Source: Solibacillus merdavium (GTDB lineage Bacteria; Bacillota; Bacilli; Bacillales_A; Planococcaceae). Taken from it: a stretch of DNA of 64,000 nt. The notes under the pieces were generated by a model, which was not told the DNA's origin, did not search any database, and worked only from the letters and a program-made list of their open reading frames with translations. Position numbers and translations under genes: made by a program. Shown one piece after another: positions 39,424 through 45,146 of the stretch (positions are counted from its first letter, which is position 1; each line of letters begins with the position of its first letter). Where the stretch lies: NCBI RefSeq assembly GCF_014836935.1, contig NZ_JACSPW010000003.1, forward strand, positions 124,001 through 188,000. Direction: 5' to 3'.

Positions 39424-39831
39424 ATCGAAGAAAAAGAGGTCTTGGAACGAATTTTCGTTCCTGTACTCTCTCAATTACTAAGGAATTTTTCATTGCCTCA
39501 CCTTAAAGGTTCTGCGACTTTTCCATGTTTATAGGATAAGCTAAATATCTGATAAAAACTCCTGAGTGAGGAGTTGAGACCAATTCTAATCAGAGTTTAC
39601 TGTGTGCTAGTTCTTTTTACAATTAGTAAAACTTGATTAATCAAATTAGTTTAAGTACAATGGAATCTTTGAATACATAAGAAGTGATAGGGGAACCAGT
39701 AAAACCATATTATAATAGAAGGTACCCCATTTTTTGCTTTTACAGTCAACCAGGAAAGAAGGGTACTAAGCTGTAATTAACGGTTCAACGGTAACTCTTA
39801 TATAAAGAGATCACAACAAAGAGGTGGCAAC
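39424..39831. other. Gene-free gap before the DUF457-type gene
   Basis: I see no convincing frame in this 400-bp stretch. It contains AT-rich DNA that should hold the promoter of the following gene, with an AAAGAGGTGG ribosome site at its end. Words such as TCTCAATTACTAAGGAATTTTT suggest degraded repeat or coding sequence. Confidence 0.4.
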
Positions 39832-40506
39832 ATGAAAGGTCGAACACATTTAACAATTGGGTTGGGAATTGGGGCAGTGGCATCTGTCAGCCAAACACCC
39901 GAGATGATCCCTGTTGTTTTAGGTGCATCCGCTGTGGCTTCGCTTGCTCCTGATTTAGACGGAAATAATCTGTTAAACAAGCATGTGACGAAGACGGCGA
40001 AACAAATAAAAAAGGGCGGACAATTTGTCGGTGGGGCATTGATTGTTCTGTCATTGGTCTCCTACATATTCCAATTCAATTTCCTGCCTTTCCTAGAGGA
40101 AGAATGGATCACTCAACAAAATAAACTACTGTTTTTAGGTTTGGGAGCAATCATTATTGCATTATCCATGAAAAGCCAGGAAACATTGAAAAATATTCTT
40201 ATGAGCATTTTAAGTTTATTCCTACTATACTATGCCATGACGGATGAACTATGGTGGCTCGTTATGTTTGCTATCTACATTGGGGCAGCGGGATGGTTTC
40301 CGCACAGAGGGCTGACCCATACAATTTGGGCATTAATTTATTGGGGGTATATGTCTCATCTGTTGGAAGTGAGCACAGGGGCTGAACATTTAGCGATAAT
40401 CTCAACTATGGCCTATCTTTCTCATATTCTAGGCGATATGATGACGAAAAAAGGAGTTAAATTTCTTTCTCCCATTACAAACAAAGTGTTTAAAATACGA
40501 ATATAA
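39832..40506 (+). CDS. YdjM/DUF457-type metal-dependent membrane hydrolase
   Basis: The 224-residue membrane protein has an N-terminal MKGRTHLTIGLGIGAVAS and LAPDLDGNNLLNKH, the histidine and aspartate motifs of the LexA-binding inner-membrane (YdjM/YfhO-neighbour, DUF457) family. It also has PHRGLTHTIWALIYWGYMS with the second His pair, and SHILGDMMTKKGVKFLSPI. Those His/Asp residues are thought to bind a metal, but no substrate is established. GAGGTGG lies 6 bases before the ATG, and a strong terminator follows. Confidence 0.85.
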   Translation: MKGRTHLTIGLGIGAVASVSQTPEMIPVVLGASAVASLAPDLDGNNLLNKHVTKTAKQIKKGGQFVGGALIVLSLVSYIFQFNFLPFLEEEWITQQNKLLFLGLGAIIIALSMKSQETLKNILMSILSLFLLYYAMTDELWWLVMFAIYIGAAGWFPHRGLTHTIWALIYWGYMSHLLEVSTGAEHLAIISTMAYLSHILGDMMTKKGVKFLSPITNKVFKIRI

Positions 40507-40515
40507 ATTTGAAGT

Positions 40516-40558
40516 AGGACTTACAACAGTTTATTTAAGCTGTTGTAAGTCCTTTTTT
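40516..40558. terminator. Strong bidirectional terminator
   Basis: The 14-bp perfect arms AGGACTTACAACAG and CTGTTGTAAGTCCT are followed by TTTTTT on the plus strand. The rgg gene converges on it from the other side. Confidence 0.88.
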
Positions 40559-40567
40559 AAAGGTGCC

Positions 40568-41425
40568 TTAAGTCGAGTATTGTTTTATTTCTGCTTTTAA
40601 TATTGATAACAAGTCGAACTGATCTAAAACTTCCAACATACTCATTCCTTTATTAATCCAATATAATCCGCGAGTGCCCATATTATTTAAACAAACACCC
40701 TTACGTATATAACATATTGATAGATTAATAAACTGTTTTTCTATTTTGCAGAGTTCGATAGAGTTTTCTAATTGTTCTAGAGCCATATTATAATCGTTAT
40801 TTTTTAAATATAACAAGGATAAATTAACTAAAAAGTTTATTTTTATACGATTTATATTTTGGAAATTTTTATACTTTTCAATATGCCGAAAAGCAAAATT
40901 TTTCATTTCTACAGCGGTATCAACTGGAAAAATATAAAGTATAGCATTTAGTAAAAAGATATCGGATAAGTATAAATTGTCCCTACGAGATAATTCTGTC
41001 CAGATGGGTTCAGCAAGTAATTTTGCATTATGAATATCGTTAGTATTTGCTAGTATTCTTAGACTTTTTATAATTATATTTATTTTACTAATAAGTTTAT
41101 CCTCAGGACATTCATTTAAGTATGAAATACAACTTTGCTGTAATTGCAGTAAATTATCCGAATTATTATAGGTTTGATTATAAAAATTATTAATAATTTC
41201 ATCTCTTAAAGACATGTTATAGCCATTATTAATATATTTAAATTCCTCGTAAGAAGTTTCTATACGGACTAGAAATTCAGATAAGGTGGAATGTTTAATA
41301 TCTTTATTTTCTCCTAGTTCAAATTTTGAAAAATTACCTTGTGTACAAATATTGTTTGATACATATCTTTGAGATAAACCTTTGCCAACTCGTATTTTTT
41401 TTATTGTCTGTCCGTAATTATTCAT
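40568..41425 (-). CDS. Rgg-family (RRNPP) peptide-responsive regulator
   Basis: This 285-residue protein has the length and layout of Rgg regulators: an XRE HTH at residues 5-61 (IKKIRVGKGLSQRYVSNNICTQGNFSKFELGENKDI, then HSTLSEFLVRIETSYEEF), followed by an all-helical TPR-like domain. The phrase FLxRIETSYEEF is strongly Rgg-like. Rgg proteins bind short imported peptides and control adjacent promoters. The start is the ATG with GGGAGG 5 bases upstream; a 14-codon longer frame lacks that. A divergent 19-residue hydrophobic peptide gene begins 87 bases away, the arrangement of Rgg/SHP quorum-sensing pairs. Confidence 0.85.
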   Translation of the reverse strand: MNNYGQTIKKIRVGKGLSQRYVSNNICTQGNFSKFELGENKDIKHSTLSEFLVRIETSYEEFKYINNGYNMSLRDEIINNFYNQTYNNSDNLLQLQQSCISYLNECPEDKLISKINIIIKSLRILANTNDIHNAKLLAEPIWTELSRRDNLYLSDIFLLNAILYIFPVDTAVEMKNFAFRHIEKYKNFQNINRIKINFLVNLSLLYLKNNDYNMALEQLENSIELCKIEKQFINLSICYIRKGVCLNNMGTRGLYWINKGMSMLEVLDQFDLLSILKAEIKQYST

Positions 41426-41512
41426 AACATCCTCCCTAAATATTCTTTTACTAATATTATAAGACAAAAAAGTATAAATTATGTAAAATAAGTAAAAAGG
41501 GGGGGTGAGAAG

Positions 41513-41572
41513 ATGATTGATATGATTATTATCGCTCTAGATTTATGGCTAATAGGAATTGGGGGAGGTTAA
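41513..41572 (+). CDS. Candidate short hydrophobic pheromone peptide (SHP-like)
   Basis: The frame encodes 19 residues, MIDMIIIALDLWLIGIGGG, and is preceded by a strong GGGGGGTGAG site 3-5 bases before the ATG. The peptide is very hydrophobic, and its C-terminal part, starting at Asp10, ends in glycines. Mature SHP pheromones of streptococcal Rgg systems are likewise Asp- or Glu-led hydrophobic octamers ending in GG, made from about 22-residue precursors divergent from rgg. It differs in lacking the usual N-terminal lysines. The gene is too short to prove from sequence alone, but the ribosome site, position and ending make it a strong candidate. Confidence 0.6.
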   Translation: MIDMIIIALDLWLIGIGGG

Positions 41573-41611
41573 TAGGTTTTTCTGAAAAGCAACATTAGAT
41601 GCAGTAATAGG

Positions 41612-41683
41612 ATGGCACCAGTAGTAGTAAAGTCCTGAAATACTATGACTGGTGCTTTTCTTGTATATTCTGGTGCCATTTTA
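41612..41683 (+). promoter_or_regulatory. Two mutually exclusive hairpins (attenuator-like)
   Basis: GCACCAGT (41615-41622) can pair with ACTGGTGC (41648-41655), followed by TTTTCTT, a terminator form. ATGGCACCA (41612-41620) can instead pair with TGGTGCCAT (41671-41679), followed by TTTTAA. Both use the same left arm, so only one can form. It lies after the peptide gene and before the sigma-like gene. Confidence 0.5.
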
Positions 41684-41936
41684 ATGTGTAAAAACCATTA
41701 ATATGAACATCCCTTTACATAGCCTAAGGTAAAAATAGTAATTATATCCTAATATTCGTATAAAATGAATATAAAACATTTAAAAATTATTATAATTTCA
41801 TTTTTTTGGTTGTATTTTTCTTTAGAAATCCCCCTATATATAGTAAGAAGGTAAGCAAAAGTTCTATTCGGTCTTTTTTAATTAAAAACGAACGAAAGTT
41901 CATGTTTTATGACTAAAAAGATAAGGGGTATGACGA
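41684..41936. other. Leader region of the sigma-like operon
   Basis: This 250-bp AT-rich leader holds no frame I would defend. It must contain the promoter of the sigma-like operon unless that is read from the peptide promoter through the hairpins. AAGGGG lies just before the ATG at 41937. An imperfect inverted pair GAACGAAAGTTC is visible at about 41890-41901. Confidence 0.4.
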
Positions 41937-42488
41937 ATGAAGATTTTAAATCCTGATGTTGTGAATAGTAATGTATTCAAGAGATTTATAGAGATTGAAG
42001 AACATAACAAACTGTATACTGCATATTTAGAGGATCCGACAAGTACTAATGCTGACATCTTAAATGAACAATTTAAATATTTTGAAAAACAGATAGTTCG
42101 TATCGCCTATATAAAAAAAGCAATTATATATGAATCCAGAAAATTTGATTCAAAGTTAAGAGAGCACAATAGAAAGTACGAATTGAATTTGGATTCCCCA
42201 ATCAATGAAAGCCTAGCAATGGTAGACACAGTCCAAGATGAAAATTCTTTTCTCCAATTCGAAAACATTTTTGAGAATGACTTAGAGAGCTTGTTGAGTG
42301 ATGAATTGTTAATCACCTTATTAAAGCGTTTAAATACTAAACAAAAACAAGTGTTGTATTATCGGTATGTAAACGAGTTAACTGAGAAGGAAATTGCGAC
42401 GATTTACAATGTATCACAACAAGCTATTTCTAAGATGATTCATAGATCAATAAATATATTAAGAGAAGGGAGGGAGAGGAATGATTGA
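41937..42488 (+). CDS. SigO-like sigma factor lacking a recognisable region 2
   Basis: The 183-residue protein ends in a clear sigma-70 region 4: LLKRLNTKQKQVLYYRYVNELTEKEIATIYNVSQQAISKMIHRSINILREG from residue 128, with the HTH at about 146-172. The N-terminal 120 residues are helical and acidic but show no DLxQ-type region 2 core. B. subtilis SigO (YvrI) is similar in size, has region 4, and needs the separate region-2-like protein RsoA. A small region-2-like gene lies two genes downstream here, matching that two-part design. AAGGGG precedes the ATG. Its stop overlaps the YvrJ start. Confidence 0.8.
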   Translation: MKILNPDVVNSNVFKRFIEIEEHNKLYTAYLEDPTSTNADILNEQFKYFEKQIVRIAYIKKAIIYESRKFDSKLREHNRKYELNLDSPINESLAMVDTVQDENSFLQFENIFENDLESLLSDELLITLLKRLNTKQKQVLYYRYVNELTEKEIATIYNVSQQAISKMIHRSINILREGRERND

Positions 42489-42648
42489 GGGACAGCTGTT
42501 TCAAATATTGGGGAATTTCGGATTTCCTATTACCATTGCGATTTATTTACTAATGAGATTCGAAGGCAAAATTGATTCATTACGAAATTCGATTGACGTA
42601 TTATCGAACGACCTCACTAAGGTAAACCATGAAAGGAGTAAAAAATAG
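42481..42648 (+). CDS. yvrJ: YvrJ-family small membrane protein
   Basis: This encodes 55 residues with one hydrophobic helix (GNFGFPITIAIYLLMRFE, about residues 11-28) and a charged coiled tail (KIDSLRNSIDVLSNDLTKV), the pattern of the YvrJ family. The ATG follows GGGAGGGAGAGGA and overlaps the end of the sigma-like gene by 8 bases, so it is probably co-translated. In B. subtilis yvrJ is a neighbour of the sigO/rsoA genes. Its function is unknown; a membrane partner or anchor for the sigma pair is a guess. Confidence 0.75.
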   Translation: MIEGQLFQILGNFGFPITIAIYLLMRFEGKIDSLRNSIDVLSNDLTKVNHERSKK

Positions 42649-42662
42649 GGGGGAGGTTAACT

Positions 42663-42848
42663 ATGGTCGAGCATTTTGATTCAAATGAAATTGTTCAAGT
42701 ATTAAAGAGAATTGAACCAGTCATTTCTTATTCATCACTGCAAACTAGAAGAGAAAATCGAGATGACCTTAAGCAGCACCTTTATGAAGTTACCATTAAA
42801 ACTTTAAAAAATACGGTTTTTGTACAACCAAAAGGATTGTTTAAATGA
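42663..42848 (+). CDS. RsoA-like co-sigma (region 2-like) protein
   Basis: The 61-residue protein has a helical core SYSSLQTRRENRDDLKQHLYEVTIKTLK containing a DLKQ element. This resembles the DLxQE core of sigma region 2.2, which binds RNA polymerase. Full-length RsoA in B. subtilis is a little longer (about 79 residues, from memory). GGGGGGAGG lies 7 bases before the ATG. It is 14 bases after the YvrJ gene, and a terminator follows at 42864. The natural reading is that it supplies region 2 to the sigma-like protein upstream, but the resemblance is short. Confidence 0.65.
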   Translation: MVEHFDSNEIVQVLKRIEPVISYSSLQTRRENRDDLKQHLYEVTIKTLKNTVFVQPKGLFK

Positions 42849-42863
42849 ATAGAATAGTTGGTG

Positions 42864-42921
42864 AGGCATTTTGATATCTAAGGAGTTCGTTGCATCTTTG
42901 GATTATTAAAATGCCTTTTTA
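42864..42921 (+). terminator. Terminator of the sigma-like operon
   Basis: AGGCATTTT (42864-42872) and AAAATGCCT (42908-42916) form a 9-bp stem with a 35-base loop and a trailing TTTTT. The long loop is unusual, but the T-run and position fit. Confidence 0.7.
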
Positions 42922-43005
42922 ATATGTTTACGTATTCAAAAAAACCTTATATTTCAAGGAAGTTAAAATGAATGTTACATAATAAATAAAGTGTTTCACC
43001 AGATA

Positions 43006-43031
43006 AACTCAACTATTTGAGGGCTTTTTTA
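43006..43031 (+). terminator. Short hairpin with T-run
   Basis: CTCAA and TTGAG form a 5-bp stem followed by GGCTTTTTT. It may back up the upstream terminator or be a chance motif in a 615-bp gene-free region. Confidence 0.4.
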
Positions 43032-43327
43032 ATTTTTATATTTTTGAATCGGTAATAATAAGCTGAAAAATGTCATTTTTGTTAAGGCAATTTTTACTGT
43101 AACGTTATATCTGTAAAATAATTTTCCTATTTAATACTATAGAGGAAATCGCATTAAATATCATAGAGAGCAAATATGAAAGCGTAATCATTTTATTAGA
43201 TATAGAATGATTTAATCTGTATTTATTATTTCGTATATTGCAAAATTCGAAAAATTCGTAATGAAGGCCTCAACTCTTTTAATCAGAGTAAAACAATATT
43301 GTAATATAATTTTGGTATATTCTAAAC

Positions 43328-43348
43328 AGGCAGTAGATGGTGCTGCCT
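43328..43348 (+). promoter_or_regulatory. Leader hairpin upstream of the acidic secreted protein gene
   Basis: AGGCAG and CTGCCT form a 6-bp stem with a 9-base loop, followed by AAAAATTTGAG. It lies about 115 bases before the gene, within the probable untranslated leader. A second weak pair, GAGTAGTTATTTTACTC, follows. Confidence 0.35.
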
Positions 43349-43463
43349 AAAAATTTGAGTAGTTATTTTACTCAATTTGAATCAGAGGTGAAACGATAAA
43401 TACCGGAAAAATGAAAAATCCATCCTATCAGTAGAAAAAATACGAATTAGGAGCGATCAAGTA

Positions 43464-45146
43464 ATGAATAAAAAACAAATGGACTCTAAAACAGCAAATA
43501 AAAATTTTTCTAAGAAAGTAGCGCCACTAGTGATGTCAACATCATTTATAGCTGCATCATTTTTAGCGGCTGGAGCACCTATTTCTGCATCTGAGCTTGA
43601 TACAAAAGATGTAAATCCGGAAATTATTGAACACGCGAAAAATCATGGACAGAAAGTATCGGCATTCGCAAAGAGCCTGCCAGGATCTCCTGAAAAAGGG
43701 AAGCTTGTTAGCCAGGTAGCCCAGCAGAACTCTGTCACAGCTAATGATGAACTAGAAGAAAGCGATAATATAGATGAAACAGATAATGATAGTGTAGATG
43801 AAGGTGCAACTGAAGTGCCGGAATCACCGGTGACTGAAGATAATCCAATTGAAGAAGAGGTAGTAGAAGAACCGGAAGCACCAGAATCAGAAGAAGATTC
43901 AACTGAAGAAGAGATAGTAGAAGAACCGGAAACACCAGTATCGGAAGAACAACCAACTGAAGAAGATGAAGTTGAAGAACCGGAAGCACCTGTATCGGAA
44001 GAAGAACCAATTGAAGAAGAGGTAGTTGAAGAGCCGGAAGCACCAGAATCAGAAGAAGATTCAATTGAAGAAGAGGTAGTTGAAGAGCCAGAAGCACCAG
44101 TATCAGAAGAAGAACCAACTGAAGAAGGTGTAGTTGAAGAGCCTGAAACACCAGTATCGGAAGAAGAACCAACTGAAGAAGGGGTAGTTGAAGAGCCTGA
44201 AATACCAGTATCGGAAGAAGATTCAACTGAAGAAGGTGTAGTTGAAGAGCCGGAAACACCGGTAACTGAAGACGACCAAACAGAAGATGGAGCTGAAGAA
44301 CCGGAAACACCAGTTTCTGAAGATGATCAAACAGAAGAAGAGATAGTGGAAGAGCCGGAAACACCGGTAACTGAAGAAGAACCAATTGAAGAAGAGGTAG
44401 CTGAAGAGCCAGAAACACCGGTATCGGAAGAAGAACCAACTGAAGAAGTAGTTGAAGAGCCGGAAACACCAGTATCGGAAGAAGAACCGACTGAAGAAGA
44501 GGTAGTGGTAGAGCCGGAAACACCAGTATCGGAAGAAGAACCAACTGAAGAAGAGGTAGTTGAAGAACCGGAAACACCGGTAACTGAAGATGGTACAGCA
44601 GACGATGACTTTATTAATTGGTTAGATGAATCGTATCAATTTATCGACAATAGTTATCAAAGTTTAATTAACTACTATCAAATTCATATTGAACAATATT
44701 TAAGTGACTTAGAATCGGATCAAACAAACGAAGAATCTGAAAATGTGCCAGTAATTGATGATGCAACTGATGATTCTGCAGATGCTGATGAAGCAGATAC
44801 AACAGATACAACATTAGAAGAAGATGAATCTCAAGATAATGCTGTTGATAATGCAGAATTACCAACTGAGACTGATGAAAACCTGGAAAGTCCAGCTGTT
44901 GTAGAAGATGAAGAACAACCTGAACAACCTTCAACTGTAGTAACTCCTGAGCAAGAAGTTGAAGAGGTGGAGAATATCGTATCAGAACCAGTAGAAGAAA
45001 CGGTACCAACTGAAACGGAAGAAATTAGTGTTGATACGGAAACAGACCAAAAGCAAGCTGAGAAAATCGCATTAAAAGATAAAGTGATTGGCTACTATCA
45101 AAACTTAGTAACATCATTCTCTAATTTTTTAAATTTCCTAAAATAA
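43464..45146 (+). CDS. Secreted acidic repetitive surface protein
   Basis: The 560-residue protein has a signal peptide (residues 1-42, cleavage near SAS). A short conserved-looking segment (EIIEHAKNHGQKVSAFAKSL, then PGSPEKGKLVSQVAQQN) follows. Residues 117-379 hold about fourteen tandem units of 17-18 residues of the form EEPETPVSEEEPTEEEVV. The C-terminal 180 residues include SYQFIDNSYQSLINYYQIHI and end with amphipathic KVIGYYQNLVTSFSNFLNFL. No LPxTG motif or membrane anchor is visible, so attachment is unclear. The Glu/Pro/Thr content suggests an extended, highly negative stalk that could bind calcium or repel neighbours. It lies downstream of the sigma-like operon. Confidence 0.85.
   Translation: MNKKQMDSKTANKNFSKKVAPLVMSTSFIAASFLAAGAPISASELDTKDVNPEIIEHAKNHGQKVSAFAKSLPGSPEKGKLVSQVAQQNSVTANDELEESDNIDETDNDSVDEGATEVPESPVTEDNPIEEEVVEEPEAPESEEDSTEEEIVEEPETPVSEEQPTEEDEVEEPEAPVSEEEPIEEEVVEEPEAPESEEDSIEEEVVEEPEAPVSEEEPTEEGVVEEPETPVSEEEPTEEGVVEEPEIPVSEEDSTEEGVVEEPETPVTEDDQTEDGAEEPETPVSEDDQTEEEIVEEPETPVTEEEPIEEEVAEEPETPVSEEEPTEEVVEEPETPVSEEEPTEEEVVVEPETPVSEEEPTEEEVVEEPETPVTEDGTADDDFINWLDESYQFIDNSYQSLINYYQIHIEQYLSDLESDQTNEESENVPVIDDATDDSADADEADTTDTTLEEDESQDNAVDNAELPTETDENLESPAVVEDEEQPEQPSTVVTPEQEVEEVENIVSEPVEETVPTETEEISVDTETDQKQAEKIALKDKVIGYYQNLVTSFSNFLNFLK
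43812..44594 (+). repeat. Tandem 54-bp coding repeats
   Basis: About fourteen units of 51-54 bp encode EEPE(T/A)PVSEEEPTEEE-like peptides. Units vary at a few codons and two have lost one codon. This array can expand or contract by recombination. Confidence 0.88.

Follow-up and report, generated by a model that had tools for sequence, protein, structure and literature searches.

A probable Rgg-type quorum-sensing pair with a tryptophan-core peptide in Solibacillus and related genera

In ComR/ComS systems, the peptide is encoded by comS, downstream of comR, and carries a double-Trp C-terminal motif. ComR activates the sigma-factor gene sigX, according to the accessible text of two reports (PMC5167397, PMC13361665). 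In the available portion of a 2022 survey, the receptors of Lactobacillales are Rgg, ComR and PrgX, and those of Bacillales are AimR, NprR, PlcR and Rap; in the latter order, the pheromone gene immediately follows the receptor gene and export is by Sec (PMC9765709). The family of Solibacillus belongs to Bacillales in that survey, and to Caryophanales in the current NCBI taxonomy. Leaderless peptides associated with the RopB clan have been extended to Bacillaceae, and a candidate is named for Lysinibacillus sphaericus, in the accessible part of a further study (PMC10518010), and many RRNPP pairs have been predicted in another, the available main text of which does not mention Lysinibacillus, Solibacillus, Planococcaceae or Kurthia (PMC10075063). 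The open-licence literature on Rgg in Solibacillus, Lysinibacillus, Sporosarcina and Planococcaceae contained no description of the peptides reported below, and our results suggest that these peptides, with their acidic-x-Trp core, form a class that is new in the searched literature and a variant of the Rgg-type receptor/peptide pairing known from streptococci. Some of the loci, and thus part of the class, may already be tabulated in the supplements of PMC10518010 and PMC10075063.

We analyzed a 64,000-nucleotide stretch of the Solibacillus merdavium genome (contig NZ_JACSPW010000003.1, hereafter the window), in which a sequence-only reading had pointed out a 285-residue Rgg-like regulator, with an HTH domain and helical repeats, beside a divergent peptide gene. 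The open reading frame of this regulator, which we call rgg, was confirmed at 40568 to 41425 on the minus strand (ATG 41425, stop 40568), and the predicted fold, with its TPR-like repeats, agrees with that description. The Pfam Rgg_C score of the 285-residue protein was 21.7 bits, under the gathering score of 27. An AlphaFold2 model, made from an alignment of 35 rows (the window's protein plus 34 rows from 33 of 35 loci, with L132 present twice and L115 and L116 left out), reached a pLDDT of 92.8, and its top Foldseek matches were Listeria Lmo0325 (4ryk), NrpR (9lth), Rgg2, Rgg3, PlcR (3u3w) and ComR, with Rgg144 and PrgX also found. When a profile of 24 relatives was searched against the PDB, 4ryk scored 81 bits, 9lth 62, Rgg2 and Rgg3 53, Rgg144 44, PlcR (2qfc) 36.7 and RopB 27.9, although the scores of RopB and Rgg2/Rgg3 are not like for like because the RopB chains hold the C-terminal domain only. 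By profile, AlphaFold2 model and Foldseek alike, the receptor is predicted to have the RRNPPA fold, comprising an HTH domain and helical repeats of the peptide-binding type. Close rgg orthologues (84-100% identity, the window included) are present in six genomes, and those of Solibacillus faecavium A46 and a same-genus relative (G005) are 90% identical to the window's gene.

Divergently oriented and 87 bases from the rgg start, a 19-codon frame on the plus strand (41513 to 41572; ATG 41513, TAA 41572) encodes MIDMIIIALDLWLIGIGGG, whose mature part putatively starts at or near Asp10. A ribosome-binding site, gggggggtgag (41499 to 41509, plus strand), is located directly upstream of the ATG, and its G-rich run is kept in the alignment of six orthologues. 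The frame, its ribosome site and its distance from rgg were found where the sequence-only reading had placed them, and the same small frame adjoins rgg in 5/5 close orthologues (Rgg identity 84-90%). That reading had also proposed that the frame should recur beside rgg orthologues with a constrained C-terminus, and the comparison bore this out. Among the six genomes, codons 2-19 have 4 variable columns at first, 0 at second and 11 at third codon positions, and at six loci of a group with 55% identity the corresponding numbers were 1, 0 and 6. Substitutions in the small frame therefore follow codon structure, indicating a translated gene under constraint. The window's peptide contains a single Trp and no double-Trp motif, and a basic leader of the MKK type is absent, with no Lys or Arg at residues 2-7. 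At one locus with 52% Rgg identity (L009), the peptide is without the Gly tail and extends to 32 residues. On the 3' side of the peptide gene, a hairpin that may serve as terminator or attenuator (41614 to 41656, plus strand) was located by alignment and by a fold z-score of -3.06 for the region that holds it (41575-41670), and one orthologue (L090) carries a paired change from A-T to G-C in this hairpin. The terminator scan made no call for it, and an Rfam scan of 39500-43600 returned no match at gathering scores.

To place this pair among its relatives, we gathered Rgg homologues from the window's family, a class sample and named genomes, 106 in all and each with a different protein core, leaving out partial, broken and some weak homologue places. 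Rgg relatives were present in 62 of 261 genomes of the family (E 1e-10). At 52 of the 106 loci, all of them in the Solibacillus family, a divergent short frame with a ribosome site encodes a peptide with a Trp core (W-peptide), and the other 54 homologues have no W-peptide after correction of the script count by eye. The script had called 53 loci, from which two (L013 and L165) were rejected and to which one (L086, given an ATA start by hand) was added by eye; L006 was given a GTG start by hand. The call at L165, which lies outside the family, was rejected as a poor fit. L013 and L165 were kept in the 106-region count and excluded from the palindrome, secreted-protein and peptide-composition counts. 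Carriers belong to Solibacillus, Lysinibacillus, Sporosarcina, Planococcus, Planomicrobium, Psychrobacillus and Viridibacillus, with Kurthia as a candidate. Of the 398 genomes in the class sample, a match at E 1e-25 was present in 20; 8 of these belong to the window's family, and the 12 outside it had no accepted W-peptide. Rgg relatives were also found on 27 plasmid records (24 of Listeria) and 2 phage records, and the two plasmid loci that were inspected have peptides of another kind.

The 52 loci contain 44 different W-peptide sequences, 14-23 residues in length except for one of 32, with the consensus L-[DE]-[ILV]-W-[LIF]-I-G-x-G; MVDLLITTLELWIIGTGGG, MLDLIISMLDIWFIGGG, MYEVMSVLLDIWLIGVGQ and MELIQILVDIWIIGG are examples. 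Relative to the Trp, position -2 is Asp or Glu in 36 of the 44, -1 is Ile, Leu or Val in 39, +1 is Leu, Ile or Phe in 42, +2 is Ile in 35 and +3 is Gly in 32, and Gly stands at +5 in 32 of the 39 that reach that position. Because the first peptide rule required W, then [LIFMVT], then [IVTSLAMK], the Trp and in part positions +1 and +2 were selection criteria, and only the other consensus positions are independent evidence. A hydrophobic C-terminal stretch that starts with Asp or Glu and ends with Gly is thus present as a pattern, and its mature form is putative. A stricter motif, [DE]-x-W-[LIFMV], combined with the ribosome-site rule, was found in 40 of the 106 divergent regions, and under the same rule the opposite strand had none, 30 first-order resamplings averaged 0.13, and 3 of 1578 random windows scored; the motif was chosen post hoc, after the data were seen. 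As a positive control, a similar script was run on 31 loci, 30 of them from a genus taken to be Streptococcus by its SHPs, and it detected SHP-type peptides at 8. Where one genome has several pairs, their peptides are distinct and each resembles that of the orthologous pair elsewhere, and the second pair in the window's own genome has the peptide MEILMSLVEALDVWLIGIDVF.

Several further loci were observed in the course of this survey. Two Listeria plasmids (L239, NZ_CP103398; L240, CP089091) carry Rgg-family genes at 2986 and 2998 with divergent peptides, MFSIFAAPIALLCGHWWV and MFSLFTTPLALLCGHWWV respectively, that are similar to each other, have a double-Trp end as in ComS-type signals and are absent from the listed annotation. 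At L161 (class sample, genus g45), MKKITIYLFFVASLPLFNLLDIWRWWGFH is encoded divergently near an Rgg relative and has a basic leader together with LLDIW and a double Trp. Three successive Rgg-type genes are found at L028 (G032:C1:976600-983430), one with a W-peptide and two without, and the window's own genome encodes a further Rgg_C protein (L145, G000:C26:8253-8762) that scores 79.1 bits, over the Pfam cut-off. The second pair in this genome (L108/L030, G000:C43:190598-202598) adjoins a convergent gene for a secreted S8 subtilase (177.5 bits).

The locus combines a conserved frame and divergent geometry with a predicted receptor fold, a pairing seen throughout the family, and transporter, protease and permease families in the same genome, and judged from sequence it is probably an autoinducing peptide-pheromone/Rgg quorum-sensing pair. 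The earlier proposal of an Rgg/SHP-like quorum pair outside streptococci is well supported by comparison as regards the pair, and not as regards membership among the SHPs. We infer export, maturation, import, binding, autoinduction and output of the following kind. The 19-residue peptide would be made and exported, perhaps through a transporter of the EcsAB/PptAB type, and a membrane protease may trim it near Asp10 to DLWLIGIGGG or a shorter form. An oligopeptide permease would take the trimmed peptide back into the cell, where it would bind in the pocket formed by the helical repeats of the Rgg-type regulator, a cytosolic protein that would occupy the shared intergenic region and, when peptide-bound, would switch both a local output gene and the promoter of the peptide gene. 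The genome contains an EcsB match (374.6 bits), 10 OppA-type matches over the cut-off and an M50 protease (best 236.1 bits), a member of the family that includes Eep and RasP, so that export, trimming and re-import would be possible by known routes. EcsAB is presumably the Bacillus counterpart of PptAB. Conservation of pptAB in Bacillales and Lactobacillales is stated in the accessible text of PMC5167397.

Lys or Arg occurs at residues 2-7 in 4 of the 44 W-peptides, and the other 40 have no basic leader, which makes export by the SHP route uncertain. This composition would also suit a peptide that works only inside the producer cell, binding cytosolic Rgg without export as a local feedback or timing element, since besides the 40 peptides without a basic residue in this region, 40 of the 44 have a negative net charge, and the peptides are so short that there is little precursor to remove. 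However, leaderless peptides of streptococci and other bacteria are reported as intercellular in the available text of PMC10518010, and the genome encodes members of the transporter, protease and permease families. We consider a purely intracellular role unlikely.

The small gene might instead encode an effector, either a hydrophobic membrane-active toxin or a leaderless bacteriocin-like peptide, that is repressed by the Rgg-type regulator. The peptide is indeed very hydrophobic, and a few related loci adjoin bacteriocin-type genes. Against this, the acidic residue before the Trp and the Gly tail are conserved, and peptide distance tracks the receptor's C-terminal domain more than its HTH domain. 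Peptide distance correlated with C-terminal-domain distance with r 0.63 (49 pairs), and the partial correlations were 0.28 for the C-terminal domain given the HTH and 0.09 for the HTH given the C-terminal domain, all of these being confounded by shared descent; L013, L165, L061 and L009 were dropped from this comparison, and L086 is also absent. Moreover, the next same-strand gene at some related loci encodes a secreted-looking protein, which is a likelier effector than the peptide. By a crude signal-peptide rule, such proteins were found at 17 of 37 W-peptide loci with a downstream ORF (51 examined) versus 5 of 25 others (42 examined), and because the rule misses some obvious signal peptides and one of the five others is a W-peptide locus (L086), these counts are used as a trend only. 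Among 14 downstream proteins picked by eye for their secreted look, 5 reach a curated cut-off. Two of these belong to the geobacillin-26 family (163 and 101 bits against a cut-off of 40), and the others are an Ntox44 protein, a C39-like peptidase and a C92 peptidase that is just at the cut-off. One more resembles the EntV bacteriocin and is under the cut-off (59 of 130 bits), and eight of the 14 gave no convincing family. On this evidence, it is quite improbable that the peptide is itself the effector.

The pheromone reading has a sub-case, not exclusive of it, in which a true streptococcal-type Rgg/SHP system was acquired by recent horizontal transfer. The divergent geometry, the acidic residue after Leu and the Gly-rich end are as in SHP1509 in the accessible text of PMC3679016. 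To compare the receptors, we built a tree of 110 rows by a quick method with a midpoint root, taking in 13 loci from the positive-control (Streptococcus-type) set and leaving out rows L004_, L021, L022, L024, L035, L061, L115, L116 and L165. The W-peptide receptors were placed apart from the SHP-Rggs (SH-aLRT 92-97), the latter being rows from a genus taken to be Streptococcus on the basis of SHPs such as MKKISKLIPILVLIMDIIIIVGG. This separation, the spread of relatives through 62 of 261 genomes of the window's family at E 1e-10, the lack of a basic leader in 40 of 44 peptides and the Trp core all count against recent transfer, which we regard as highly improbable. W-peptide receptors are intermixed with receptors without a W-peptide, one supported clade of 14 has none, and the W-peptide label changes 11 times on the tree versus a shuffled mean of 34.8; losses or missed peptides must therefore be common. 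The absence of a W-peptide beside about half of the homologues in the collection would fit a chance open frame beside a MutR/GadR-like regulator without a peptide, an idea contradicted by the codon-structured substitutions and the motif controls and hardly credible.

In the favored pheromone reading, the regulator would act on the region between the two genes. The promoter-like hexamers of the peptide gene, AAGACA and TAAAAT with 17 nt between them (41461 to 41489, plus strand), match the consensus at 9/12 positions, and because the scan gave 12 sites versus 14.1 expected in shuffles, they are weak alone; TATGTAAAAT of this candidate is identical across six orthologues. TATAAT at 41456 to 41461 on the minus strand, a candidate -10 element of rgg, is likewise identical in the six. 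A conserved block, TATTCTTTTACTAATATTATAAG, with one variable base among the six orthologues (41441 to 41463), occupies about the position at which palindromes such as TATTC-N6-GAATA are found in several paralogous loci, TATTCCATATGGAATA and TATTCGTATACGAATA among them. Read as a palindrome, this block has just 5/8 pairs, no better than chance. The sequence-only reading had suggested as operator the arms TTTTACT (41446-41452) and AGTAAAA (41491-41497), whose positions are correct. In the six close genomes the right arm does not vary and three have a single changed base in the left arm; in the 55%-identity group both arms are changed. The left arm falls within the conserved block, and we prefer the block, from its sequence a candidate Rgg site, as operator over these arms. 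Near the rgg start, perfect 16-bp palindromes occur at 5 of 51 loci versus 0.2 expected (two of the five are orthologues), and palindromes with 7 or 8 pairs at 15 of the 51 versus 4.2 expected; those with 5 or 6 pairs, the window's included, are no commoner than expected. These expectations come from single-letter shuffles, and L006 was entered with a wrong start. When up to 3 mismatches were allowed, the block was unique in the genome, with no copy at the sigma-factor gene described below. An attempt to define a regulon by copies of the second pair's palindrome, TATTCGTATACGAATA, was abandoned, since it matched one site perfectly and a second with 2 mismatches, and the reversed control gave 6 sites per strand, more than the real palindrome. 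Neither operator-copy search pointed to a distant target.

A possible output lies closer at hand. Downstream of the peptide gene, all on the plus strand, are genes for a sigma-70 region-4 protein (41937 to 42488; Pfam Sigma70_r4, 43.1 bits), a small YvrJ-family protein (42481 to 42648; Pfam YvrJ, 60.5 bits), a 61-residue protein (42663 to 42848) and a 560-residue Glu/Pro-rich tandem-repeat protein with an N-terminal hydrophobic stretch (43464 to 45146). The YvrJ and 61-residue genes are present in 5/5 orthologous loci, where the first 109 residues of the repeat protein are also matched and the order of the four genes is the same; the repeat protein had no Pfam match at E 0.01. Upstream of the sigma/YvrJ operon, a block at 41805-41860, TGGTTGTATTnTTC...CCCCTnTATATA, is conserved in six genomes and is likely a promoter. 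A close homologue of the sigma gene (86-93%) was found in exactly 6 of 16 Solibacillus genomes, those with the close rgg, and at E 1e-20 one other Solibacillus genome has a 38% relative and nothing closer. The six carriers may be one lineage, so the association of rgg with the sigma gene is linkage, not proof of control. We tentatively propose, as a possibility short of an even chance, that the pair is the switch of an alternative sigma cassette, resembling ComRS-SigX and arisen in Solibacillus with a peptide family of its own, within a family-wide class of acidic-x-Trp pheromones that elsewhere gate secreted proteins of bacteriocin or toxin type. A quorum-controlled sigma factor in the window is a simply testable idea, and secreted antibacterial-type proteins of the Solibacillus family may be under density control. 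More generally, Rgg-type receptors with divergent peptides at dozens of loci in this family appear to have a peptide code of their own, and so many natural receptor-peptide pairs are material for work on specificity.

Among the described systems, PlcR/PapR of the Bacillus cereus group resembles the window's pair in its Bacillales host and in the fold of its receptor (2qfc, 36.7 bits in the profile search; 3u3w in Foldseek), and differs in that the window's peptide gene is divergent and its product has no Sec leader evident in the sequence. ComR/ComS (XIP) likewise has a receptor of Rgg fold and a short peptide containing Trp, and the window's pair is linked to a sigma-factor gene, control there being putative; in contrast, the window's peptide is without the double-Trp motif and its gene is divergent. 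RopB and its leaderless peptides (LCPs) are similar in that a short peptide without a basic leader is encoded mostly divergently from an Rgg-family receptor, as described in the available text of PMC10518010. In that text, LCPs are mostly of 8-10 residues, aliphatic and aromatic, whereas the W-peptides, though leaderless, have 14-23 residues, an acidic-x-Trp core and a Gly tail. The likeness to streptococcal Rgg/SHP pairs (Rgg2/Rgg3-SHP, Rgg1358-SHP1358, Rgg1509-SHP1509) includes a receptor with HTH and helical repeats, a divergent small gene with a ribosome site (at 69-91 bases in SHP loci and 79-143 in W-peptide loci) and a hydrophobic peptide that ends in Gly and in which Asp or Glu follows a hydrophobic residue, as seen in MRNKIFMTLIVVLETIIIIGGG beside MIDMIIIALDLWLIGIGGG. 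However, the W-peptide receptors fall outside the streptococcal SHP-Rgg clans, on the opposite side of the tree, and the W-peptides, of 14-23 residues (one of 32), lack the MKK/MRN leader in 40 of 44 cases and are usually acidic near the N-terminus. They also contain Trp, here a selection criterion, which is missing from the four SHPs given in the accessible text of PMC3679016, and their pairs are linked at some loci to secreted proteins and in the window to a sigma factor. With the receptor apart, the leader missing and a Trp core in the peptide, SHP is thus an analogy for these pairs rather than a class to which they belong.
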